64,000 nucleotides of DNA. It comes from Alphaproteobacteria bacterium AO1-B (lineage in GTDB: Bacteria; Pseudomonadota; Alphaproteobacteria; Rhizobiales; Stappiaceae). Of this stretch, positions 14,038-61,909 are shown one piece after another. The notes beneath the pieces are model-generated. The model did not search any database and was not told where the DNA came from. It saw only the letters and a list, made by a program, of their open reading frames with translations. Numbering within the stretch: position 1 is the first letter of the stretch; the number at the start of each line of letters is the position of its first letter. The stretch is from assembly GCA_001890945.1 (NCBI GenBank), contig MLAX01000001.1, positions 1,054,001-1,118,000 of the forward strand, given 5' to 3'. The translations under genes and the position numbers were made by a program.

Positions 14038-14484
14038 ATGGCCATCGCAGTTTTTATTGGTGTCGTTTTTCTGGCTGCGGCCAGTGGTGCCGTGTTCAAA
14101 CCAGGGCCGTGGTACGAGGAGCTGCGAAAGCCGAGCTGGACACCGCCAAACTGGGCTTTCCCGGTGGTCTGGACACTTCTTTACATCATGATCGCCTATG
14201 CTGGCTGGAGTGTCTGGTCCAAGGTTGGTTGGTCGTTGCCGATCGCATTCTGGGCCTTGCAGATCGTGCTCAATGCGGCTTGGTCCTGGTTGTTCTTCGG
14301 ACTGCGGCGCATGGATCTGGCGCTTGTTGATGTCGGTCTTCTCTGGTTGGCAATTGCAGGGTTTATTGTCACTGCGTGGCCTGTTTCACCGATCGCAGCG
14401 CTGCTTTTCGTGCCTTATCTTGCCTGGGTGACAACTGCCGGATTGCTCAATCGAGCCGTCCAGCAACTGAACCCGGAAGTCTAA
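14038..14484 (+). CDS. tspO: TspO/MBR family tryptophan-rich sensory protein
   Basis: The 148-residue, five-helix membrane protein has the TspO hallmarks FKPGPWYEELRKPSWTPPNWAFPVVW (about 23-48) and NAAWSWLFFGLRR (about 81-93). TspO binds porphyrins and in Rhodobacter sphaeroides modulates photosynthesis gene expression in response to oxygen. The ATG at 14038 is chosen over the TTG directly before it because GGAG lies 8 bases upstream. It converges with the minus-strand gene at 14481 and overlaps it by 4 bp. The PpsR-type site in the upstream gap may control it. Confidence 0.92.
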   Translation: MAIAVFIGVVFLAAASGAVFKPGPWYEELRKPSWTPPNWAFPVVWTLLYIMIAYAGWSVWSKVGWSLPIAFWALQIVLNAAWSWLFFGLRRMDLALVDVGLLWLAIAGFIVTAWPVSPIAALLFVPYLAWVTTAGLLNRAVQQLNPEV

Positions 14485-14750
14485 ACACGCAATCGCGTGA
14501 TCAGGTCCCATATGTGGGCGATCAGTGCGAGGCTTAGAAACGACAGCACAAGAAACAGGGCATCGCCGCGCAGGGCAAATCCGAGCGCGGCCATCAGGCA
14601 GCTTCCGGCAAGGACATTGCCGAGCAACAACTTGAATCGCTCGCCAGGTGCGTTCGAAAACCTGCAAAGAACCGCGAACTCTATCCAAAGAAACAGAACC
14701 GCGCCGAACGGCAACCATCCGGACTGTAGCCAGGTCAAAAGCAGGTTCAT
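14481..14750 (-). CDS. Small membrane protein downstream of bchP
   Basis: The 89-residue protein has about three hydrophobic helices (LPFGAVLFLWIEFAVL, LLLGNVLAGSCLMAALGFAL, LFLVLSFLSLALIAHIW). I know no function for it. Its ATG overlaps the bchP stop codon (ATGA), so it is translationally coupled as the last gene of bchG-pucC-like-bchP. The position suggests a role linked to late bacteriochlorophyll synthesis or membrane assembly, but this is only context. Confidence 0.7.
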   Translation of the reverse strand: MNLLLTWLQSGWLPFGAVLFLWIEFAVLCRFSNAPGERFKLLLGNVLAGSCLMAALGFALRGDALFLVLSFLSLALIAHIWDLITRLRV

Positions 14751-15952
14751 TTCTGGCTGGCCGGCAGACCTGCAAGTTGTGCCAGATCCTTGAAGAAGAC
14801 CCGGATATGGCCGAGCGGATCGCGGCGGACCAGACGCTTGTTCAGATAAGATTCCCAGGTCAGGCGCTGGACGTCCGGGTCGGCGCACATCGTCACAAAC
14901 CGCTCCCGCAAACCGTCACTGCGGTACCAGACCGCCTGCATGATGCCAAGAATGAAAAAGATACGGCCATGTTCCGCCATGAACCGGCGCCGGGCTTGGC
15001 GCAAAGCGGATGCTTGGCCGGTCGCAAGGCACTCAGCAACGGCATCGGCACTCAGGTTGCCGCACAGCATTGCGTAGTAGATGCCTTCGCCGGATGATGG
15101 GGCAACGGTGCCAGCGGCATCGCCGGCAAGAAGGACATTCTGTCCGTTGTCCCACCGCCGCATTGGTTTGAGGGGCAGCGGAGCCCCTTCGCGCCGGATC
15201 GTCCGTTGTCCGGTCAACCCTGCACGGTCGCGCAAGTCCGACGTGGCATCCCTGAGATTATGCCCCTTGACCGCGGAGCCGCAGCCGACGGACGTTTGTC
15301 CCCCATGCGGGAAGACCCAGCCATAGAAGTCCGGAGAAATCCGGCCATCATAGACAACATCGCAGCGGTCGCGCTTAAAGGCGTCTGGGTCCGGAGCTTC
15401 CGGGCTTTCCACGATCTCGTGATAGGCAAAAACGTACGGCGGCTTCTTTTTCGCTGGGAACATCAACCGCCTGACAGCGGAATTGGCGCCATCTGCACCA
15501 ATTACCATGCGCGCATTGAGGTGTTCCGCTGTTCCAGGATGCTCTGGATCGGTCCCGTCTACTTTCAGGTCCAGGCTTCCGTTCGACGCTGTGTCCATGC
15601 CAGCCAGCTTGCCTCTGACAAATCGGGCACCCGCCTGTTCAGCCCGGCCGCGCAGATATGGATCAAAGGTTTCCCGGTCGACCATGCCCACAAATCCAAT
15701 ATCGCCAATGCGCATTTCCACCGCATTCCCCGACGGGGCAATGACACGTGCCGCATTGGCCCGGGCCACCAGCAGGTCTTCAGAGATCTCAAAGTCTTTC
15801 AGGGCGCGGGACGGGATTGCCCCCCCACAGGGTTTGATCTTGTTGTCCGGGTCGACCAGAACAACAGAATGACCGGATCGCGCCAAGCGCTCCGCAGCGA
15901 TCGCACCACAAGGACCGCCTCCAATGACAGCAACATCAAAATTCGATTTCAT
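14747..15952 (-). CDS. bchP: Geranylgeranyl diphosphate/geranylgeranyl-bacteriochlorophyll reductase
   Basis: BchP reduces the geranylgeranyl tail of bacteriochlorophyll a to phytyl in three NADPH-dependent steps. The 401-residue protein begins MKSNFDVAVIGGGPCGAIAA, an FAD-binding GxGxxG motif, followed by DPDNKIKPCGGAIPSRAL, typical of the geranylgeranyl reductase family, and a second flavin motif NVLLAGDAAGTVAPSSGEGI near 275. The start at 15952 is chosen because homology begins there; the frame is open further upstream but overlaps the preceding gene. It lies 29 bp after the PucC-like gene and overlaps the next gene by 4 bp. Confidence 0.95.
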   Translation of the reverse strand: MKSNFDVAVIGGGPCGAIAAERLARSGHSVVLVDPDNKIKPCGGAIPSRALKDFEISEDLLVARANAARVIAPSGNAVEMRIGDIGFVGMVDRETFDPYLRGRAEQAGARFVRGKLAGMDTASNGSLDLKVDGTDPEHPGTAEHLNARMVIGADGANSAVRRLMFPAKKKPPYVFAYHEIVESPEAPDPDAFKRDRCDVVYDGRISPDFYGWVFPHGGQTSVGCGSAVKGHNLRDATSDLRDRAGLTGQRTIRREGAPLPLKPMRRWDNGQNVLLAGDAAGTVAPSSGEGIYYAMLCGNLSADAVAECLATGQASALRQARRRFMAEHGRIFFILGIMQAVWYRSDGLRERFVTMCADPDVQRLTWESYLNKRLVRRDPLGHIRVFFKDLAQLAGLPASQK

Positions 15953-51415: not shown

Positions 51416-52600
51416 CTAGAAACGGTTCTGAGGCCGTCTTTGCATGGCAAGCTTCTGGGATCTGTGGTGTGCACGGCTTTCTGCTTGCAGCTTGATCATC
51501 ACACCGAGGACCCACTCCATGTTGCTGTCATCAGAATCACTTGCGTGTGCAGCCTTTTGCAGTCTGGCATGTGTTTCGAACGAGTTTGCACAAGCAGAAA
51601 CCAGGTGCGCGGCAGACGGATCAGCCGGACGTTGCATATCGAAATGTGCCGTATTGGACTGTTCCAATTGGGTCAGCCGGGCCTTTAGCAGAAGACTGAG
51701 CTTTTTGATCTTCCGGGTGTGAGCGCGGCGTGTGACGCTGTCATAGTTGTTGAGTGCGATTTCAGTCCCGATTTCCTGATAAACCAGAGCTGCCGTCCGG
51801 ATCGCATGGCGGCAGTTTTCCGGCAGTGCGTTAATCCCGGCATGGCCCAGTTCATAGTGATGGGCAGCTTCTGCCAACAGCCGCACAACGACTTCGCGGA
51901 GCTCCGGCGAAAACTTCGGAGAGGCGAGAAAAGCCTCCGGATCAAGGCCTGCGTCGCGCATCCAGTCTTCCGGAAGATACAAGCGTCCGTTCCGGGCGTC
52001 TTCTCCGACATCTCGGGCAATGTTCGTCAATTGCATTGCAATCCCGAGATCGGCGGCCCTTGCAAGGGCGTCCTTGTCGCCCGTCCGCATGACAAGCGAC
52101 ATCATCAGGCCGACCGTTGCAGCAACACAGGTGGCGTAATCCTTGACGTCCCCAATGGTTTTGTAGTGCCGGTCACCAAGGTCCATCGCAAACCCGTCCA
52201 GCAAGGCATCCGGAACGCATTTCGGTATTCCATACGTCTGAACAGTTCTGGCAAACGCACGGTCACAGGCGTAGGGCGCGGGCGTTCCGCGATAGACAAG
52301 ATCAAGGCGGTCTTTCAGCTGATCAAGGGCTGTTCGATCAGCACGTGGATCATCGATCAGATCATCGGAATGCCGGCAAAAGGCATAGAGCGACAAGGCT
52401 GCCTTTCGGGTTTCCGCAGGTAATATCAGGGAGGCGAGGTGAAACGATTTTGATCCTTTTCGGATCGCCGCGGCGCATTCCCTCAGATCCGCCTGATGAC
52501 TTGCAGAAACGGATGCCTGTGCTGCTCTGGCCCTTTGTCTGCTGGTGCTGGTCGCGAACGGCACGAAACTCTCCAGATTGTCGGGTGTAATGTCGCTCAT
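51416..52600 (-). CDS. crtB: Phytoene synthase
   Basis: CrtB joins two GGPP to phytoene. The 394-residue protein has the squalene/phytoene synthase aspartate motifs CRHSDDLIDDPRAD (about 75-88) and NIARDVGEDARNGRLYLPEDW (about 196-216). It is longer than typical, with a polar N-terminal extension of about 35 residues and a Ser/Asp/His-rich tail (QKAAHASDSDDSNMEW). It overlaps crtI by 4 bp on the same strand and converges with crtC. Confidence 0.95.
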   Translation of the reverse strand: MSDITPDNLESFVPFATSTSRQRARAAQASVSASHQADLRECAAAIRKGSKSFHLASLILPAETRKAALSLYAFCRHSDDLIDDPRADRTALDQLKDRLDLVYRGTPAPYACDRAFARTVQTYGIPKCVPDALLDGFAMDLGDRHYKTIGDVKDYATCVAATVGLMMSLVMRTGDKDALARAADLGIAMQLTNIARDVGEDARNGRLYLPEDWMRDAGLDPEAFLASPKFSPELREVVVRLLAEAAHHYELGHAGINALPENCRHAIRTAALVYQEIGTEIALNNYDSVTRRAHTRKIKKLSLLLKARLTQLEQSNTAHFDMQRPADPSAAHLVSACANSFETHARLQKAAHASDSDDSNMEWVLGVMIKLQAESRAHHRSQKLAMQRRPQNRF

Positions 52601-54162
52601 ACAGATGCCTCCGTCCCGGCATGCGCGGCCGTGAGGTTTGACGGATCCGGGGCAAGCTCAGCAACGATCTTGGCAGAACAAACAACACCTGGAAGACCGG
52701 CGCCAGGATGTGTTCCGGCACCGCACAGGAAGAGGTTGTCCAGCTCCTCGCTTTTGTTATGCGGCCGGAACCAGGCACTTTGGAAAAGGTTCGGTTGAAG
52801 CGAGAAGGCGGCGCCCTGCCAGGACAGAAGCCGGTCCCGGAAATCAAGCGGCGTCGAGATACGGGAGCTCACAATGTGCTTGGAAAGATCCGGAAGCAGC
52901 GTTGCCTCAAGTTCTGCGGCAATCTTGGCCCGGTACTGCTCAGCGACAGTTTCCCAATCCGCATCGCCTTTCAGATTTGGAACAGGGCTCAACACATAAT
53001 AGGCGTCGCATCCGTCCGGCGCGACGGATGGATCGTTTGCAGAAGGGCGGTGCAGGTAAAGGCTGAAATCCTCTGCGAGCACCCTGTTCTTGAAAATGTC
53101 CTTGAGCAACCCTTTGTAGCGGGGCCCGAACAGCATGGTGTGGTGCCCCACATCGTCATACCGGCGATCGGTCCCGAAGTACCAGACGAACAAGCCCATT
53201 GAGTAGTCCTGCCGGCCCAGCTTCCCGTCGGACCAACGCCTGCGCGGCAGATCCTTAAGAAGTTTTGAGTACGTCGTTGCCGGGTCGGAATTGGAGACAA
53301 CAATGTCTGCCGGAACGGTCTCTCCGGAGGACAGGCGCACCCCTGTCGCGTGCCGTCCGGATGTCAGGATCGTATCGACCGTCTCCCCATACCGGATCTG
53401 TCCTCCGTTCCTGGTGACGAGATTTGCGATCCCGCGTGCCAGAGCATTTGTGCCGCCCATGGCGTAATGCACCCCATGTTTGCTCTCCAGGTGAGCAATG
53501 AGACAATAGAAGGAAGTGGTGGTGAACGGGTTCCCACCGATAAGCAGCGGATGGAAGGAAAACACAGACCGCAGACGATCATTCTTGAAGTGCTTGGACA
53601 CCACATTGTAGACGGACCGATAGCCGCCAAGCCGGATCAACTTTGCAAATGTGCTAAGTGTAAAGGGCAGGCTGTGAAACGGCTTGTCGGCGAGTTCTAG
53701 GAAAGCGTATTCGTAAATCTCTTTGCTTTCCGCCATGAAGGAGCGGTAGCCCTTGACGTCATCCGGCTCAATCTTGGCGATTTCCGATTCCATCGCGTCT
53801 TTGTCGGCCGAGTATGTGAAGAATGTGCCGTCCGTGAACCGGATCTTGTAGAAGGGAATGTTCGGGCGGATGTCAACATCGTCTGACAGTTTCCCGCCGC
53901 AGGCTTCCCAGAGTTGCTCGAACAGCCATGGAGCGGTGATGATGGTTGGGCCGGCATCAAGAGTAAAACCGTCCTGCTCAAAGGCATAAGCCCGGCCACC
54001 CGGTTTATCGAGCGGATCGAAGATTGTAACCCTGTACCCCTTCGCGCCAAGCAGAGCACCAGCCGCCAAGCCGCCTATCCCTGCGCCAATAACGGCCGCA
54101 TGCGGTCGTGTAGACCCGATTGGTTGCGGCTTTGGAAATCCAAATCCCTGGACAACGTTCAC
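52597..54162 (-). CDS. crtI: Phytoene desaturase
   Basis: CrtI desaturates phytoene to neurosporene or lycopene. The 521-residue protein has the FAD motif AAVIGAGIGGLAAGALLGAKGY (about 23-44), GRAYAFEQDGFTLDAGPTII, and LFLCGAGTHPGAGLPGVVCSAK near the C-terminus. The start is a GTG with GGGAG 8 bases upstream. A PpsR site is 122 bp upstream. Number of desaturation steps cannot be read from sequence. Confidence 0.95.
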   Translation of the reverse strand: MNVVQGFGFPKPQPIGSTRPHAAVIGAGIGGLAAGALLGAKGYRVTIFDPLDKPGGRAYAFEQDGFTLDAGPTIITAPWLFEQLWEACGGKLSDDVDIRPNIPFYKIRFTDGTFFTYSADKDAMESEIAKIEPDDVKGYRSFMAESKEIYEYAFLELADKPFHSLPFTLSTFAKLIRLGGYRSVYNVVSKHFKNDRLRSVFSFHPLLIGGNPFTTTSFYCLIAHLESKHGVHYAMGGTNALARGIANLVTRNGGQIRYGETVDTILTSGRHATGVRLSSGETVPADIVVSNSDPATTYSKLLKDLPRRRWSDGKLGRQDYSMGLFVWYFGTDRRYDDVGHHTMLFGPRYKGLLKDIFKNRVLAEDFSLYLHRPSANDPSVAPDGCDAYYVLSPVPNLKGDADWETVAEQYRAKIAAELEATLLPDLSKHIVSSRISTPLDFRDRLLSWQGAAFSLQPNLFQSAWFRPHNKSEELDNLFLCGAGTHPGAGLPGVVCSAKIVAELAPDPSNLTAAHAGTEASV

Positions 54163-54283: not shown

Positions 54284-54301
54284 TGTCAAATTTAGTTTAC
54301 A
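54284..54301. promoter_or_regulatory. PpsR/CrtJ operator upstream of crtI
   Basis: TGTCAAATTTAGTTTACA fits TGT-N12-ACA with good dyad symmetry. It lies in the 172-bp gap (54163-54334) between crtI and the membrane-protein gene, which are both on the minus strand, so it most likely controls crtIB. Confidence 0.75.
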
Positions 54302-54334: not shown

Positions 54335-55114
54335 TTATTCCGCTGCATCGAGGTCCATGGACCGTCTTTGACGCGGTCTGGCTGTTCGTTGAGTGAAGCG
54401 CTGGGTAACTTTGTGCCGATGGTAGAAGATGAGAGCGAGACCCGTTACGAGTGGAATGGCCCAGAGCCCGGGTGCCAGGGCCAGTTCCGGCATCAGCCGG
54501 ACGGCGCCGAAAGCGAAAAACGCGGTGTAGACCGAGATGCCGGTGCCGACGATTGCCTTGATATGTTCCAGCAGCCACTCGATCGGAGACGGGTCGGACT
54601 TCACAAGAAACCAGACATTCGTCGCGACGGTCGCAAATCCGACCATGGAAATCCCGATCATCATCGGCTGGGAAATCAAGACCCCTTGAATGGCGCAATT
54701 GGCGGATGCAGCAAGCAGGGCGGCCTGAAGACCCCAGTTGAGCGCGGTCTGGTTCTTCCGCTGATCCCGCTTGTTAATCGCGCAGCGCCAGCCGTACCAG
54801 GTGAGGTTTACGGTCAAGAGCCCGAGATAAAACATCATCCAGCCAAATATACCCTGCACCAGAACGGGATCGGAGAACTCCGGGTGATCAACGAGATGCG
54901 GATGCGTCGGCATGGGGTAAAGGAGGGTCAAGGTTGCCATCATCATGGCCACCGTGCCTGTGATCAGCATCAGGACCGAGAAGATCTTGCCCCACCACTT
55001 GTGACGCTCGCCGCCCTTTTGGGCCAAGACCGGGATCCAGAAACCGATCAGTCCCGGCGCGCCGGTTGTGATGTGTATGGCGATCAATACGACAAAAAGA
55101 TCATGTTCGGTCAT
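54335..55114 (-). CDS. Multi-pass membrane protein, possibly DUF2306-like
   Basis: The 259-residue protein has about seven to eight hydrophobic helices. The N-terminal part (LIAIHITTGAPGLIGFWIPV followed by AQKGGERHKWWGKIF) carries histidines at helix ends in the pattern HxxxG...KG...HxxxG, resembling DUF2306-type membrane proteins, a tentative match. The ATG at 55112-55114 is chosen because homology-like sequence starts there; a longer frame would overlap the divergent P450 gene. It is 46 bp from the P450 and could share regulation with it. No function is known. Confidence 0.65.
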   Translation of the reverse strand: MTEHDLFVVLIAIHITTGAPGLIGFWIPVLAQKGGERHKWWGKIFSVLMLITGTVAMMMATLTLLYPMPTHPHLVDHPEFSDPVLVQGIFGWMMFYLGLLTVNLTWYGWRCAINKRDQRKNQTALNWGLQAALLAASANCAIQGVLISQPMMIGISMVGFATVATNVWFLVKSDPSPIEWLLEHIKAIVGTGISVYTAFFAFGAVRLMPELALAPGLWAIPLVTGLALIFYHRHKVTQRFTQRTARPRQRRSMDLDAAE

Positions 55115-55160
55115 GGGCTTGGCTCTTTGATCGAGGCACACGAAATGCGGAAGAAGGGAC

Positions 55161-56549
55161 ATGTTGATGGCAGCTGTTGAGACATACATTCCGCCGCGCC
55201 CGTCGCGGCTGCCACCGGTTCTGGCGCTGCTGCGGACCGTCTGGCACGGCGATGGAGATCTTCTCAGCCTGTTGCCGGGGGCAGCGTTTTCCATGGCCGC
55301 CGGAGAGCTGGGCTACTCGCGCCGGTCCATCAAACTCTTCAACGATCCGGAACTGGTCCGGCAGATCCTGCTCGATCCGGAAGGAATCTTTCCGAAAAGC
55401 GATCTGATGGTCGGTGCACTGGAGCCGCTTATAGGAGATTCCATCTTCGTCTCCGATGGAGCGAAATGGCGCCGCCAACGGGCCATGATCGATCCGGCGT
55501 TTTCTAAAATGCGTCTGACCCATGCCTTTGGCGCAATGGTCGGTGCGGTCGATGACTATGTCGCCCGTTTGAAGGAGAGCGCAGCCCGCGATGAGGTTCT
55601 GTCGCTTGACCGGATCATGAGCGAGCTCACAGCCGATATCATTTGCCGAACGGTATTTTCGACCTCGCTCGACACCGGAATTTCGCGGGACGTCTTTGAC
55701 GATTTCGCCGTATTTGAACGCGGTGTGGCGCAAGTGAAAATCTGGCGATTGATCACCGATCCGGCTTGGGCCGATGTTCCGCAAAGCGATGAGGTTCTGG
55801 CGGCCTGTAAGCGGATCCGGCACCACCTTGGGAGTTTGATTGACACGCACATGGGTCCGGAGGCCGGGAATTATGATGATATCGCCAGCGCAGTCATTGC
55901 TGCGCGCGATAGCGAAACGGGCGAGCCGTTCACGCGCGATGAACTCATCGATCAGCTGGGGGTCTTTTTTCTTGCAGGTCATGAAACGACAGCGAGCGCC
56001 CTGACCTGGGCGTTTTATCTCTTGGCGATGTGTCCGGATGTCTTGCGCCGGCTGCGGGCGGAAGTCGACGAGACCACGGACGGCAATGCTCTCACCTTTG
56101 AGGCCACCCGTGCGCTGGGCTATACGCGTGCCGTCTTTCGCGAAACCTTGCGGCTTTACCCGCCGATCACGTTTTTGCCGCGGGTCGCGATGCAGGGCAC
56201 CAGAATCGGCAAGTACAAAGTGCGCAAGGGCGCGCTTTTGATGATCTCGCCCTGGACCTTGCAGCGTCATGGAGAGTACTGGCCTGATCCGGACCGTTTC
56301 GATCCGGATCGCTTCCTGCCGCCAAAGGAGCAAGAGGTCGTGCAAGGGGCCTACATTCCCTTTGGAGCCGGGCCGCACACCTGTGTCGGGGCCGGTTTTG
56401 CAGCCGTCGAAAGCGCGCTCATTCTTGCCCGCCTGACACGTGAGTTCGACTTTCTGCCTGAAAACGCGGATGCCGTGCGACCGGTTGCGCGCCTCACGAC
56501 GCGCCCTGCGGAACAAATCTATGTGCGGCTCAAGTCTCATGGGCGTTGA
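55161..56549 (+). CDS. Cytochrome P450 in the carotenoid region
   Basis: The 462-residue protein is a complete P450: I-helix AGHETT (272-277), ExxR in FRETLRLYPP (about 326-335), PxRF-like DPDRFDPDRFLPP, and the haem loop FGAGPHTCVG with Cys408. The layout and WRRQRAMIDPAFS segment resemble class-I bacterial P450s of the CYP102/CYP4-like fatty acid and terpenoid group more than short actinobacterial types. No ferredoxin partner is adjacent. It lies between crtIB and bchIDO, where many clusters carry crtA, so a carotenoid substrate is possible but unproven. It converges with the ATP-grasp gene and overlaps it by 20 bp. Confidence 0.9.
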   Translation: MLMAAVETYIPPRPSRLPPVLALLRTVWHGDGDLLSLLPGAAFSMAAGELGYSRRSIKLFNDPELVRQILLDPEGIFPKSDLMVGALEPLIGDSIFVSDGAKWRRQRAMIDPAFSKMRLTHAFGAMVGAVDDYVARLKESAARDEVLSLDRIMSELTADIICRTVFSTSLDTGISRDVFDDFAVFERGVAQVKIWRLITDPAWADVPQSDEVLAACKRIRHHLGSLIDTHMGPEAGNYDDIASAVIAARDSETGEPFTRDELIDQLGVFFLAGHETTASALTWAFYLLAMCPDVLRRLRAEVDETTDGNALTFEATRALGYTRAVFRETLRLYPPITFLPRVAMQGTRIGKYKVRKGALLMISPWTLQRHGEYWPDPDRFDPDRFLPPKEQEVVQGAYIPFGAGPHTCVGAGFAAVESALILARLTREFDFLPENADAVRPVARLTTRPAEQIYVRLKSHGR

Positions 56550-57780
56550 CCGGATCGGCGGTGCTGAACGTCTGTTGCGTGCTGACCGGCTGGGGAGCGC
56601 GGGCTTCTCCCACCGCGTTGGCCTGGGTCATCCCGGCAGGCCAGGCAATGTCGAGCGTTGCAGCTTCACCAAAGGTTTTCCGGCCAAACAGAACCTGTTT
56701 CAGCACGGGCCAGGACGAGAACGTCATCATCGGAAACGGTAAGGGATCGGAGCCCGACCACAGCACATCCCGCGATGTGACCATGGCACCGGCACGGCCT
56801 ACCATCTGTTTTGGCTTCAGAACACTGCCGTAGACTTGCAACAGCGTTGTGTGGCCTTCCTGAAAACGCTTCTTCGGCTTCAAACGGACTGGCGGTGCGT
56901 TGTCCGGATCACACACCGCAGCGGCCAGATCCTCATGCTCCATGAAATGAATGCCGCTCGTCAGCCGCGGATTGCATTCCAGTGGCCAGGGCGTTCCGGT
57001 CTGGTCCACAATGAAGTCGAACGCCAAAAAGTAGGAGTAGCGGTTTGCAGCGACGAAATCGGCGACCCATTGCGCCACTTGCGGGGCATCTTCAACACGT
57101 TGAAAACAAACGGCGACGGTGCCCGAGAAGACAAGGCCTTCATAGGTCACATGCGCGAGGATCTTGCCGTCCTGGCACAGGGTCAAGGTGCTTAGTTCGC
57201 GGCCAAAAATACGCTTTTGAACGATGGCATCAGGATCGCTCAAAAGTCCCTCCGGAACAGTGTCCGGTGTCAGCATTTGCATCTTCTGCCCGGAGCATCC
57301 GATGCGAGGTTTGAACACACACGGTGTGGTCCGCACCAATCTGGCAGCCTCAGGATCGGTCGCAAGATGGGTCTCGGGGGCAGGCAAGCCTGCGGATTGC
57401 GCCAAGCGATTGAAGAGGTATTTGTCGTTGAGGTCCCACAGCACGCCATGCGGATTGGTGAAGAGCCGGGTTCTTTCCGGGAGCCGCGGAGCCAGCAAGC
57501 TGACATGAAGAGCTTCTTCGGAAACGGGAACGACCAGATCGATGTTTTCTGCTTCAATGATGGTAAGCAGGGCATCGAGATACTCGGATTGCTGCGTCGC
57601 TGGCGGTGGTGTCTGATAACAATTGTCGACCGCATTCGACGGCCGGCTCAAATGCCACGCAAATGGATCGGCCACCAGAACCCGGCAGCCCGCACCTTTC
57701 AGGGCCCGGGCGAGTTCCAGCGACTTTGGAAGCCGTCCAAGTGTGAGCAACACGGTTTTTTGTGTCGTCTCCGTTGCCAC
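56530..57780 (-). CDS. ATP-grasp domain protein downstream of bchO
   Basis: The 416-residue protein has an N-terminal Rossmann-like pre-ATP-grasp domain (VLLTLGRLPKSLELARALKGAGCRVLVAD), a central ATP-grasp region with CVFKPRIGCSGQ (about 163) and the metal-binding end FDFIVDQTGTPWPLECNPRLTSG (about 272-294). The acidic and Asn metal ligands in ECNPR are intact, so it is probably an active carboxylate ligase forming an acyl-phosphate. The substrate is unknown. It starts with GTG after GGAG, 33 bp behind bchO on the same strand, which implies co-transcription with bchIDO. Confidence 0.82.
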   Translation of the reverse strand: MATETTQKTVLLTLGRLPKSLELARALKGAGCRVLVADPFAWHLSRPSNAVDNCYQTPPPATQQSEYLDALLTIIEAENIDLVVPVSEEALHVSLLAPRLPERTRLFTNPHGVLWDLNDKYLFNRLAQSAGLPAPETHLATDPEAARLVRTTPCVFKPRIGCSGQKMQMLTPDTVPEGLLSDPDAIVQKRIFGRELSTLTLCQDGKILAHVTYEGLVFSGTVAVCFQRVEDAPQVAQWVADFVAANRYSYFLAFDFIVDQTGTPWPLECNPRLTSGIHFMEHEDLAAAVCDPDNAPPVRLKPKKRFQEGHTTLLQVYGSVLKPKQMVGRAGAMVTSRDVLWSGSDPLPFPMMTFSSWPVLKQVLFGRKTFGEAATLDIAWPAGMTQANAVGEARAPQPVSTQQTFSTADPVNAHET

Positions 57781-57813: not shown

Positions 57814-58734
57814 TCATGCAGCATTTGCGCCGTTGGTTTTGGCGGCCTGCAGGGCCTCAGTCATCCAGTTTGCGACGCCTTCCGGATGGCTCTCGTGCAC
57901 AAGATGGCCACCGATCGGCGCGAGCTGCAGATGTCCGTTCGGTGCAAGCGCTGCGGCCTTTCTTGAGCTGGACGGCGGCACCATCGGGTCGTCTTCAGCC
58001 GCATAAAGATGAAGCGGTGCGCTCAATCGCTGAAGCATGGCGTTCAGGTGCGACAGATCCCAGGAAGCCATCATCCCAAGAGCCCCGCGAACATGGCCGG
58101 AAGATCCAAGGAGGCGTTGGTAAATCGCATCACCTAGCGGATCGATCCGGGACCCGGTTGCGCTCAAGAGGTTGTTGCCAAGCGGCGTCGACTTTGCGAG
58201 CAAAGAAAACATAGACGCCGATAAGGGATTGGCAAACAGCGCCTTGGCCATCGGCGACAGGATCCGGTTGCCGCGGATCGGCTTCAAGGCTCCGTTGACG
58301 CTGAAAATTTGCGGCGTTGGGTCCTGCGTGTGTTTCGCATGACGCGTTGCGTTGACCAGCGATATCTCGATAACAGAGCCGGCCGAATGCCCTAAGAAAA
58401 ACTGCGGTTTCAAGTCTAGATGGTGCAACAATCCACGAATGGCAGTCGTCATGCCTTCAAGAGAGAGGTCCGGGCTTTCCGTCGGCCGGGTGAAGCCATG
58501 GCACGGCAAATCCACGACGATCAGCCGATAGTCGTTTTCTAGAAAGGGAATGAGATTGCGCCAGGAGAAAGAGGCTGCCCCGGTCCCATGGATCAAAAGA
58601 AACGCCGGTGCCGTATCTTGACCTAACAACTGGACATGCCACCGGTAACCGCTTGCCTCTACAAACTGGCTGGCCTCTCTGTAAGGCCAGTCTTGCCCGT
58701 CCCGGTCCCAGTTGAGCCAATCACGATCCGCCAT
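57814..58734 (-). CDS. bchO: Mg-chelatase-associated alpha/beta hydrolase BchO
   Basis: The 306-residue alpha/beta hydrolase has the nucleophile elbow FFLGHSAGSV (Ser117), the oxyanion LIHGTGAASFSW and a late acidic/His pair (AEDDPMVPP, GGHLVHESHPEG). BchO is routinely found with bchI and bchD; its substrate remains undefined in the literature I know. Its ATG shares one base with the bchD stop. Confidence 0.92.
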   Translation of the reverse strand: MADRDWLNWDRDGQDWPYREASQFVEASGYRWHVQLLGQDTAPAFLLIHGTGAASFSWRNLIPFLENDYRLIVVDLPCHGFTRPTESPDLSLEGMTTAIRGLLHHLDLKPQFFLGHSAGSVIEISLVNATRHAKHTQDPTPQIFSVNGALKPIRGNRILSPMAKALFANPLSASMFSLLAKSTPLGNNLLSATGSRIDPLGDAIYQRLLGSSGHVRGALGMMASWDLSHLNAMLQRLSAPLHLYAAEDDPMVPPSSSRKAAALAPNGHLQLAPIGGHLVHESHPEGVANWMTEALQAAKTNGANAA

Positions 58735-60608
58735 CAGCTGTGCGCCTCCTCAAGCGATGCGTTGACGAGATCGGACATGGTACGGGAATCGGCATGCCGC
58801 AAAATATGCAGATCTGCGCCCATGGTGCTGGCCAGAGTGGAAACGGATTCCCGCGGACGGCGGGCGATGTCGATACAAATTGCCCGGATCTCATGCGCAC
58901 GGCATTGTTCAGCAAGGCCATGCACTTGTTCGGCTGCCCGGGTTCGGTTTGGCGTGCCATCTAGGGAAATGTTGCCCCGTCCGTCCGTCATGAGGACCAG
59001 CACCGGTGTACTTCCTTGACGCCGGACATTGAGCGCGAGCTCAAGTCCTCGTTCCAGACCGGCCGCCAGTGGTGTCGGACCTCCGCCAGGAAGTCCGGCA
59101 AGTTTTCGCTTTGCCATGACCAGCGAACGGGTCGGTGACAAAAGGGTTTCTGCTTGGGTGCCGCGAAAGGCAATCATTGCCACTTCATCGCGGCGCACAT
59201 AACACCTGGAAAGCAACTGCTCGATGGCGCCTTTGGTTTCGCCAAGACGCTCCAAAGCTGTTGAGCCGGAGGCATCAACGACGAATATCGCAGTCGAGGG
59301 CGTCTCGTGACGCAGGCGCTGATAGCGGTAATCGTCGCGCGTGATCAACGTGCGCGGTTTGCGGCGCGGTGGAGCGGCGATCGAGCGTTCTAGTTTTGCT
59401 GCCAGAAAGTCCCGGTTGCGGTTTCGGATGAGCTGCCAGGGAGCGGCCGCACGCAAGGTCGCAAGAATGTTGGGACGGGCATCCGGACGGGGTGGCATGC
59501 GGGAGGTTGAAACCGGCCGGCCGCGGCGGGCGTCTTTGCGAACCGCACCGGACTTTCCGGACCGGGCCCGAGGCGACGATCGCGTTGTGTCGGCCAGAAA
59601 CTCGGGAAGACCGTCGATTGTGCCAGCTTCGACAGCGGCCAAAAGTTCTGAAAGTGCGGAAAGGTCCTGCTCAGCAGTTGCAGGGGTGTCCTTATCCTGG
59701 TTTTCCCCGTCCAGTTTGGGCCCTGCATCCTGTTGGTCAGATTGGCCATTGTCCTCAGGCTGTGTCTGGTTTTCTTCGACCGGATCGTTTGGTTGCGCGG
59801 CGAGGGACAGCCCAAGGCACAAGCGGACCGCGGTGAGGGCATCTGCCTCTGAAACAGTGCTTCGCTCCTCCAGCGCTGCAAGCGTTTGGCAGAGCCTTGA
59901 GAGGTGTTTCAAAGTGCGCAGCGAAGAAACGCCCGCGGCAAACGCCAGACGGGACAGAAGGCCAATCAGTTCGTCACTGATCATCACGTCGGCAGCAGTG
60001 ACGGTGGAGGTACGCTCCGCGCCGGGTGAATGTGATGCGACCTCGCTCCAAGGGATTGCATTCAGGTCAATCATGAGCCCGAGCCGGTCTCCCAGCGCTT
60101 TGGGGAGATGTTCTTCGGGGTTTGCCCCTTCATCTACCGCGACTACCAGAAAGTCTGCGGTGTCTTCGGCAGCACTGTCGGCTGGGCGGCCGGCCCTTGG
60201 GCAGGCGCGGCGATCCATTGTCTCGCCGATCAGGGCCGCAACAGGGGCTTCCACACGTTCCGCCATCGGGATGAGAAGGACGCCCTGATCGGCCTTTGCG
60301 AGAAGCCCGGGCTGGGTGATGACACGCCCGGCGAGGGCGGTTGCCGGAATGTCGACACTGCCGGTCAGGCCTTGCAGGGAAACGGATGAGGGAACGCGGA
60401 CCCACGGTTTGTCCTGGCCCAGCAGCGCAGCAAGGTGATCGAGATATGCATCACGAACACCGCCTGCGCGAGCCTTCAGCCAAAGTCCGCCCAGTCTGGC
60501 ACCACCTGCTTTCAGGGCTTGTGCTGCAAGAAGGGCATCCTGCCACGTATTCGGGGCAAGTTCTGGTCTTGCGGCGTCAAAAGCCTGCATGGACCGGACA
60601 TCATCCAT
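58734..60608 (-). CDS. bchD: Magnesium chelatase subunit D
   Basis: BchD forms the hexameric AAA+ partner of BchI. The 624-residue protein has a degenerate AAA+ N-terminal half, an acidic Gln/Asp-rich linker (ENQTQPEDNGQSDQQDAG, about 270-290), and a C-terminal von Willebrand A domain with the MIDAS motif FVVDASGSTALERLGETKGA (about 430). It overlaps bchI by 8 bp. Confidence 0.96.
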   Translation of the reverse strand: MDDVRSMQAFDAARPELAPNTWQDALLAAQALKAGGARLGGLWLKARAGGVRDAYLDHLAALLGQDKPWVRVPSSVSLQGLTGSVDIPATALAGRVITQPGLLAKADQGVLLIPMAERVEAPVAALIGETMDRRACPRAGRPADSAAEDTADFLVVAVDEGANPEEHLPKALGDRLGLMIDLNAIPWSEVASHSPGAERTSTVTAADVMISDELIGLLSRLAFAAGVSSLRTLKHLSRLCQTLAALEERSTVSEADALTAVRLCLGLSLAAQPNDPVEENQTQPEDNGQSDQQDAGPKLDGENQDKDTPATAEQDLSALSELLAAVEAGTIDGLPEFLADTTRSSPRARSGKSGAVRKDARRGRPVSTSRMPPRPDARPNILATLRAAAPWQLIRNRNRDFLAAKLERSIAAPPRRKPRTLITRDDYRYQRLRHETPSTAIFVVDASGSTALERLGETKGAIEQLLSRCYVRRDEVAMIAFRGTQAETLLSPTRSLVMAKRKLAGLPGGGPTPLAAGLERGLELALNVRRQGSTPVLVLMTDGRGNISLDGTPNRTRAAEQVHGLAEQCRAHEIRAICIDIARRPRESVSTLASTMGADLHILRHADSRTMSDLVNASLEEAHS

Positions 60609-61656
60609 GCGCGGCCTCTGTTGGGGAAACCGCCTCAGCGCTCACGGCAGCGACGGCGCGTTCAATTCGCGGAGCGCTTCCGGCATCATCAAGCGGATCC
60701 CGCCGCAACCGATGGCACAGAACCATTGGCGAAATGTCAGAAACATCCGCCCAGGTTACCGCCAGACGTCCGGCGAGGGCTGCGCTTGCCCGGCAGGCCC
60801 GCATGAGGGTCAGCTCGCCGCGCATCCCGTCAATGCCAAGACTCATGCAGAGTTGAGACATCCGCGACAAGACATCGTCCGGAATATCGACCTGCCGCAG
60901 GATCTTGCGGGCCTTGACCACTTTATTCCGGATGGCGGCATCCTTGCGGGACCACTTCGCCACAAAGGCAGCCGGGTCAGCTTCAAATGCGTCACGGCGG
61001 CGGATCACCTCGATACGTTGCTGGAGATCGTTGATTGTGCGGATCTCGACACTGAGGCCGAACCGGTCGAGCAGCTGCGGACGTAGATCGCCTTCTTCCG
61101 GATTGCCGCTTCCGACCAGCGCGAAGCGGGCGGCGTGCCGAATGCTGAGGCCTTCCCGTTCGACCACATTGACGCCGGAGGCCGCAGCATCGAGAAGAAG
61201 ATCGACCAGATGATCTTCGAGAAGATTGACTTCATCGATGTAGAGAAAGCCCTGGTTGGCCGCTGCCAATAGCCCTGGCTCAAAGTCCTTTTCGCCGGCA
61301 ACCAACGCCTTTTCCAGATCCAGAGCACCGCAAATCCGGTCTTCGGTTGCGCCAAGCGGCAAATCGATCATGGGGGTGCGGATCTGCACTTTCTTGGGCG
61401 GCTTCTTGCCATCTGCGGGGGTGCAAACCGGGCAGGCTGTCTGCGGGTGGTCCGGTGAGCAATTGAACCGGCAGCCTACGCGGGTGTCAATTTTGGGCAA
61501 CAGTTCAGCGAGTGCGCGGACGGCTGTAGATTTGCCGGTGCCACGATCACCAAAAATCAGGACACCACCCAAGAGTGGCTCCACGGCTGCCATCAGCAGG
61601 GCCTTTTTCATGTCCTCTTGGGCGACAATGGCTGAGAAGGGAAAGGGTGCTGACAT
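60601..61656 (-). CDS. bchI: Magnesium chelatase ATPase subunit I
   Basis: BchI is the AAA+ ATPase driving Mg2+ insertion. The 351-residue protein has Walker A GDRGTGKS (36-43), Walker B FLYIDEVNLLED and the sensor GSGNPEEGDLRPQLLDRFG. I choose the ATG at 61656 (MSAPFPFSAIVAQ), the conserved family start; the frame extends 13 codons further but into the promoter. It heads bchIDO and the ATP-grasp gene. Confidence 0.97.
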   Translation of the reverse strand: MSAPFPFSAIVAQEDMKKALLMAAVEPLLGGVLIFGDRGTGKSTAVRALAELLPKIDTRVGCRFNCSPDHPQTACPVCTPADGKKPPKKVQIRTPMIDLPLGATEDRICGALDLEKALVAGEKDFEPGLLAAANQGFLYIDEVNLLEDHLVDLLLDAAASGVNVVEREGLSIRHAARFALVGSGNPEEGDLRPQLLDRFGLSVEIRTINDLQQRIEVIRRRDAFEADPAAFVAKWSRKDAAIRNKVVKARKILRQVDIPDDVLSRMSQLCMSLGIDGMRGELTLMRACRASAALAGRLAVTWADVSDISPMVLCHRLRRDPLDDAGSAPRIERAVAAVSAEAVSPTEAAHG

Positions 61657-61676
61657 TGGAATCCACCATATATGAG

Positions 61677-61694
61677 TGTCAATATAAGTTGACA
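61677..61694. promoter_or_regulatory. PpsR/CrtJ operator upstream of bchI
   Basis: TGTCAATATAAGTTGACA is a nearly perfect palindrome fitting TGT-N12-ACA, 20 bp before the bchI start. The other part of the 301-bp divergent gap (61657-61957) has no further gene. Confidence 0.85.
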
Positions 61695-61909
61695 CATTTT
61701 ATTGGTGGAGAGAAGAGGCGGCGCGGTTTTTTTGGCGCTGTACGTAGAATGCCGGTGTCTTTGTGTCCAAGAAACAAGCGCCGCCGTGTCTAACCAAGAA
61801 AACCGGACACCAAAAGGGAGGCAATGGCACCACGTCTCTGTGCTGGCGGCAACTTCTGGCGATAAGGGAGCTATTGTTGGTCCCAATTCAATTCGATTAA
61901 GATCTTTTA

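Follow-up and report, generated by a model that had tools for sequence, protein, structure and literature searches.

A conserved, phototroph-linked trio of P450, membrane-protein and ATP-grasp genes as a candidate carotenoid-tailoring module

The alphaproteobacterium AO1-B, which belongs to the Roseibium/Labrenzia group (G000 in our comparison set), carries three genes between crtIB and bchIDO, inside its photosynthesis gene cluster, that encode a cytochrome P450, an integral membrane protein and an ATP-grasp ligase. We examined this trio within a 64-kb stretch of the genome, referred to here as the window. The locus raises the question of what the three genes do in a place where an initial annotation had expected crtA, the gene for spheroidene monooxygenase; that annotation speculated that the trio modifies carotenoids or a carboxyl group of a tetrapyrrole. 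Our answer is that the P450 module is conserved and linked to phototrophy, that the P450 is not a simple alternative to crtA, and that this conserved gene set most probably acts on carotenoids.

The three proteins and their conservation

All three open reading frames were confirmed. The P450 (55161..56549, + strand, 462 aa, PF00067) has its motifs intact, as first described: Cys408, AGHETT at residues 272-277, and ETLR, the ExxR motif, at residues 328-331. Members of the P450 superfamily are recognised by the haem cysteine, an I-helix AGxxT and ExxR; with these in place, C408, E328 and R331 invariant across nine aligned P450 rows, and a PF00067 score of 250 bits (cut-off 22.8), the protein belongs to the cytochrome P450 superfamily. 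An antisense reading frame of 479 aa lies opposite the P450 (55101-56540, − strand), and its R. denhamense equivalent also has 479 aa; it is probably a shadow of codon bias.

Divergent from the P450 gene, across a spacer of 46 bp (55115..55160), lies the membrane-protein gene (54335..55114, − strand, 259 aa), whose product has seven long helices in an AF2 model (pLDDT 77) and many invariant residues across six aligned rows. The 46-bp gap holds given a start at 55114 (MTEHDL), which is the most likely one; a 319-aa frame comes from a mechanically extended start, which reaches into the P450 gene. The ATP-grasp gene (56530..57780, − strand, 416 aa, PF02655) converges on the P450 gene, and the two overlap tail to tail by exactly 20 bp, the figure first reported. 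Hallmarks of ATP-grasp enzymes are the ATP-grasp fold and Mg-binding D/E/N residues. The protein scores 30.7 bits with PF02655 (cut-off 23.2), and D255, E268, N270, R272, K120 and K157 are invariant in seven aligned rows; it is a member of the superfamily by profile, by the invariant D255, E268 and N270, and by fold comparison.

Relatives of the P450 were sought in 87 genomes of the window's family, in 385 alphaproteobacterial genomes (the class sample), in 369 genomes of the class of the Granulosicoccus genome G473, which we take to be the Gammaproteobacteria, and in a further scan of genome contigs. Taking about 50% identity or more as membership of this P450 family (close P450s in the window's family are at least 61-62% identical), we found it in 21 genomes: 12 from the window's family (including L003-L005), three more from the alphaproteobacterial sample, four from the contig scan (L006-L009, L008 being the same genome as G473) and two more from the sample of G473's class. 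The window P450 is 98% identical to the copy of Labrenzia sp. R4_2 and 92% identical to that of Roseibium denhamense.

The full trio is present in 17 of the 21 genomes, with the membrane-protein gene divergent and the ATP-grasp gene convergent. Within the window's family every genome with a close P450 (12 of 12) carries all three genes, one ATP-grasp copy being frame-broken, and the arrangement recurs in Parvularcula, in another alphaproteobacterium and in three gammaproteobacteria. Such identity of order and orientation across 17 Alpha- and Gammaproteobacteria bears out the suggestion of a long-established arrangement. The tail overlap is 19-44 bp in nine further loci (Roseibium relatives, Parvularcula and RI_41) and between −3 and 9 bp in six (genus g7 and the gammaproteobacteria). 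It is unmeasurable at L021 (G076), where the ATP-grasp match is broken across two frames; this break could be a sequencing error in the assembly or a pseudogene.

The remaining carriers have fewer components. G214 has the P450 and the membrane protein, with no ATP-grasp relative found, while L008 has a divergently arranged P450 and ATP-grasp gene, with no membrane-protein relative found genome-wide. In G182 and G191 the gene immediately upstream of the P450 is crtA, and neither partner was found in either genome. Among distant P450s (45% identity or less), 25 rows were listed in the family and loci were read for 18; none of these 18 had a trio partner within about 1.5 kb, and three of these P450s had no crt or bch gene of our query set within about 8-10 kb.

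The P450 is strongly linked to the reaction centre. The pufLM genes occur in 18 of the 87 family genomes, and a close P450 was found in 12 of these 18 compared with none of the other 69 (Fisher P = 1e-10). In the class sample it was found in 4 of 25 genomes with pufM and in none of the other 360 (Fisher P = 1.4e-5). It is important to note that these P values are guides only, given that related genomes are not independent, and that they cover the family and class samples, to the exclusion of L006-L009, G593 and G732.

Between the window and R. denhamense, the P450 (92%), the membrane protein (90%) and crtI (90%) are the most alike, followed by bchI (85%), bchO (78%), the ATP-grasp protein (77%), crtD (65%), crtB (64%), bchD (59%) and crtC (58%). 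The corresponding dN/dS values are 0.031 for the P450, 0.044 for the membrane protein and 0.090 for the ATP-grasp gene, and serve for ranking only, with silent sites near saturation.

Relation of the P450 to crtA

The initial annotation reported no crtA in the window, and this holds genome-wide: with R. litoralis CrtA as query, we looked for a copy elsewhere in G000 and found none at E<=0.001, while the same search finds crtA in three other family genomes. A search of G000 with NF045923 also gave no match, but no control matched in that search. The description of the trio as lying where crtA usually sits is correct for some clusters only. In the two Rhodobacterales clusters that we read, crtA occupies the bchI-crtI interval, as it does in L087 and L088, but in the three crtA-bearing relatives of the window's family (L055, L056 and L057) it is flanked by hemA and the gene for isopentenyl-diphosphate isomerase.

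One possible explanation of the locus is that the trio functionally replaces CrtA, the P450 introducing the keto (or hydroxy) group at C-2 of the carotenoid, with accessory roles for its two partners. The window trio fills the very interval that crtA takes up in the two Rhodobacterales clusters. Furthermore, crtA is found in 3 of the 18 family phototrophs, none of which has a close P450, so that none of the 18 holds both (P = 0.025), and three hold neither. Nor was crtA found in any of the 17 tested genomes, out of 19, whose P450 is accompanied by the membrane protein, the ATP-grasp enzyme or both; 12 of these were covered by the family search, four by a search of G471-G474 and G214 by the class-sample search, while G593 and G732 were checked over about 20 kb only. 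The G471-G474 search gave no positive of its own, the same query giving matches in the family and class-sample searches.

Set against this, the family's own crtA sits elsewhere, and crtA is rare in any case (4 of the 25 class-sample phototrophs), so its absence says little. Two of those four genomes also have the P450, and in G182 and G191 the two genes stand in tandem; the order in G191 is bchI, crtA, P450, and crtI follows after about 3.3 kb. Pooling the phototrophs of both samples (18 + 25, less 1 shared, giving 42), we count 15 with the P450, 7 with crtA and 2 with both (P = 1.0), and hence the two genes do not simply substitute for each other. The anti-correlation that the initial annotation proposed to look for is seen in the window's family and vanishes on pooling; what stands is the narrower result that the 17 tested genomes with a partner-bearing P450 lack crtA, and the replacement idea survives in a weaker form. 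We consider a functional replacement distinctly unlikely and, as the sole explanation, simple replacement of crtA is rejected by the two tandems and the vanished anti-correlation. In G182 (locus L049, contig C23) the crtA-P450 pair lies beside hutI, hutH, hutG and urocanase genes, and pufM is on another contig.

The tandems are placed by a maximum-likelihood tree of the P450 (26 rows including seven outgroups, with G066 and G076 left out). The G191 and then the G182 P450 branch below a clade of 17 rows (support 100/99), all of which have the membrane protein, the ATP-grasp enzyme or both. Support for the forks just below this clade is moderate (89-94), making the exact order of the G191 and G182 branchings likely, not certain. 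The tree is most simply read as an initial linkage of the P450 to crtA, followed by recruitment of the partners and loss of crtA. Gammaproteobacterial and alphaproteobacterial rows are intermingled in the tree, which would fit transfer of the gene together with, or inside, such clusters of photosynthesis genes.

Neighbouring genes and the proposed chemistry

Pigment genes are the frequent neighbours of the trio. In the window it adjoins crtI and bchO, and the same cluster contains the acyclic-pathway genes crtC and crtD. It also adjoins crtI in L007 and L009 and lies between crtB and crtI in L085, while in L006 about 2.6 kb separates it from the start of the bchIDO genes. The P450 adjoins crtD in L008 and bchI in L048, and is directly behind crtA in L049 and L050; bchP and bchG are near the trio in G082, G083 and L007.

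We give about an even chance to the reading that the trio serves aerobic anoxygenic phototrophs as a module for carotenoid tailoring, in which the P450 first worked with CrtA and later gained an ATP-grasp ligase and a membrane partner. The frequent adjacency to crt genes and the strong link to phototrophy favour the idea of carotenoid modification put forward in the initial annotation, though not in the form of a P450 simply taking the place of crtA. Further points in its favour are the lack of trio partners beside distant P450s, the branching order of the tree, the high identity of the P450 and membrane protein to those of R. denhamense compared with crtB, crtC and crtD, and the plant carotenoid hydroxylase LUT5 as top solved match of the P450 profile. 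Enzyme motifs, conservation, gene order, phototroph linkage and branching order are observed, whereas we infer the substrate, reactions and product of the module. As a type of chemistry, oxidation is very likely for the P450, and a carotenoid is its likely substrate; that the ATP-grasp enzyme carries out a conjugation is a reasoned guess. Together the three proteins probably make an undescribed carotenoid modification.

In such a pathway the P450 would use O2 on an acyclic carotenoid supplied by CrtI, CrtC, CrtD and CrtF. The ancestral form would have acted alongside CrtA, and in the window's lineage crtA would have gone, the ATP-grasp ligase and the membrane protein having been added. The ATP-grasp enzyme would most likely activate a carboxylate with ATP and join it to an amine or hydroxyl, yielding a conjugated, more polar carotenoid, while the membrane protein would most likely hold or present the lipophilic substrate, or serve the P450, in the membrane. 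A more specific version is only tentatively proposed: that oxidation by the P450 turns an end group into a carboxylate (or some other point of attachment), that the ATP-grasp enzyme couples it through an amide or ester bond to an amino acid or another small molecule, and that the resulting conjugated polar photosynthetic carotenoid has been horizontally shared among aerobic phototrophs of two proteobacterial classes.

Several observations weigh against a carotenoid-tailoring role. The P450 occurs in only 4 of the 25 class-sample phototrophs. The membrane protein and the ATP-grasp enzyme are separable from the P450, as seen in G214 and L008, so the three proteins need not act as a strict three-step pathway. 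No crt query match was found in the 19 kb read in G082 and G083, where the neighbours are bchP and bchG, or in the 12 kb read in G079; the G732 trio has no query-set crt or bch gene within about 8-9 kb and no pigment gene in the 20 kb read; and the G182 crtA-P450 pair adjoins histidine-use genes, crtA being the only query-set pigment gene in 19 kb. The solved structure that scores best with the P450 family profile is a plant carotenoid hydroxylase, LUT5/CYP97A3 (238 bits), but CYP3A4 reaches 187 bits and carotene epsilon-monooxygenase, the one other plant carotenoid P450 listed, only 175, and LUT5 is only 33% identical to the window P450 (126 of 386 aligned residues), making the resemblance no proof of a carotenoid substrate.

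Neighbourhood also bears on the suggestion that the trio alters a tetrapyrrole (bacteriochlorophyll, a precursor or haem), for example by side-chain oxidation and carboxyl amidation. The ATP-grasp gene shares its strand with bchIDO and comes 33 bp behind bchO, and bchP and bchG are nearby in G082, G083 and L007. That the gene is transcribed with bchIDO, as initially annotated, agrees with its strand and spacing, and it is perhaps part of that operon; among the loci read, no such linkage was seen outside the Roseibium genus group. Beyond neighbourhood we found no positive evidence for the tetrapyrrole idea. Recognised close neighbours outside g7 are usually crt genes, the only pigment gene recognised in the G182 read is crtA, and the portions of the literature available to us mention no new bacteriochlorophyll for these bacteria. 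We therefore regard it as quite improbable.

A third alternative is that the trio makes or degrades a separate small molecule, unrelated to pigments, and is only a passenger in the photosynthesis gene cluster or its vicinity. The G732 trio, away from recognised pigment genes, would fit this, as would the plasmid neighbourhoods of distant ATP-grasp relatives, five of the eight read being operons in which KAS III is accompanied by a reductase and an MBL-fold hydrolase, and the GNAT-like domain of the Granulosicoccus ATP-grasp protein. On the other side stand the strong restriction of the P450 to phototrophs and its repeated adjacency to crt genes in two classes, and we consider this alternative unlikely.

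The five plasmid operons (L072, L073, L074, L075 and L077, from Pontibacillus, Paraburkholderia, Paenibacillus, Roseateles and Shinella) have KAS III with the ATP-grasp gene adjacent or close, an NAD(P)-dependent epimerase-like enzyme and the MBL-fold hydrolase; an F390/CoF-synthetase-like protein is annotated in four of the five and a GNAT protein in three. The Granulosicoccus frame (L008:6417-8744, − strand) has its GNAT-like domain fused at the C-terminus, which echoes the GNAT neighbours of some plasmid relatives.

The genes flanking the window trio are crtB (51416-52600) and crtI (52597-54162), forming the block 51416..54162, and bchO (57814-58734, above the TIGR03056 cut-off), bchD (58734-60608, matching annotated magnesium chelatase subunit D) and bchI (60601-61695, named by position and similarity to relatives' loci), forming the block 57814..61695, all on the − strand. 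The accessible text of PMC4452267 gives the PpsR consensus as TGT-N12-ACA. The window holds 19 such sites against 10.0 expected from shuffled sequence, with none of 100 shuffles reaching 19. One PpsR/CrtJ-type site lies between the membrane-protein gene and crtI (54284..54301, + strand), and another (61677..61694, + strand) is at the 5' end of the bchI frame, ahead of bchIDO and the ATP-grasp gene. The 46-bp spacer between the membrane-protein and P450 genes has none. Among 15 such spacers scanned (G066 and G076 left out), four contain a site (L020, L022, L023 and L007; spacers of 116-125 bp), and in the three related loci among them the TGT and ACA are kept while the inner sequence differs.

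Small hydrophobic proteins of similar size are encoded in the window (14481-14888, − strand), L052 (12477-12770), L006 (12867-13187) and L007 (12587-12871). The gene adjoins a bchP-position gene in the window and bchP in g7 genomes (window and L052, 38% identity, E 4e-5); the L006 and L007 genes, whose products look similar, neighbour the trio, but BLAST shows no homology for these two.

Comparison with known systems

In the open-licence literature we found no paper on the trio, no carotenoid pathway with an ATP-grasp step and, in the parts available to us, no account of which carotenoids Roseibium/Labrenzia strains make. According to the accessible portion of PMC12654162, no part of a photosynthesis gene cluster varies more than its carotenoid genes; the main text of that paper has no occurrence of "P450" or "ATP-grasp". 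A 2023 review of purple-bacterial carotenoid genes (PMC10604819), in the sections available, names neither a pathway enzyme of the P450 type nor an ATP-grasp step; "P450" occurs there twice, where monooxygenases are discussed in general and where CrtA is said not to be one. A conserved, phototroph-restricted P450 module would predict an undescribed pigment in marine bacteria, with R. denhamense as a named carrier species, and the series from crtA-P450 to P450 with membrane protein and/or ATP-grasp enzyme makes its evolution readable.

Known relatives of the partners are distant. GAR synthetase, the L-amino acid ligase of Bacillus licheniformis and PylC are just 12-18% identical to the window ATP-grasp protein, which scores 247.5 bits with the NCBIfam equivalog PRK06849, under its cut-off of 406. 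No Pfam family matches the window membrane protein at E<=0.001; three of four relatives scanned match DUF2306 (PF10067) weakly over their N-terminal helices, all below the gathering score (the best of the four reaching 24.3 bits against a cut-off of 31.6).

For the P450, the likeness to CYP97 is that LUT5 tops the solved structures. Membership of a CYP family takes at least 40% identity to a member, and at 33% to CYP97A3, the sole CYP97 member whose identity was counted, the window protein falls short of this mark for CYP97. CYP97 enzymes hydroxylate the cyclic carotenoids of plants, whereas the trio's cluster has crtC and crtD, which belong to the acyclic pathway. CrtA (NF045923) is a different protein from the window P450, being a five-coordinate haem enzyme and not a P450 according to the available sections of PMC10604819. 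The likeness would lie in O2-dependent oxidation within the acyclic carotenoid pathway, and it lies in the bchI-crtI interval of the two Rhodobacterales clusters and in the tandem that crtA forms with a P450 of this family in G182 and G191.

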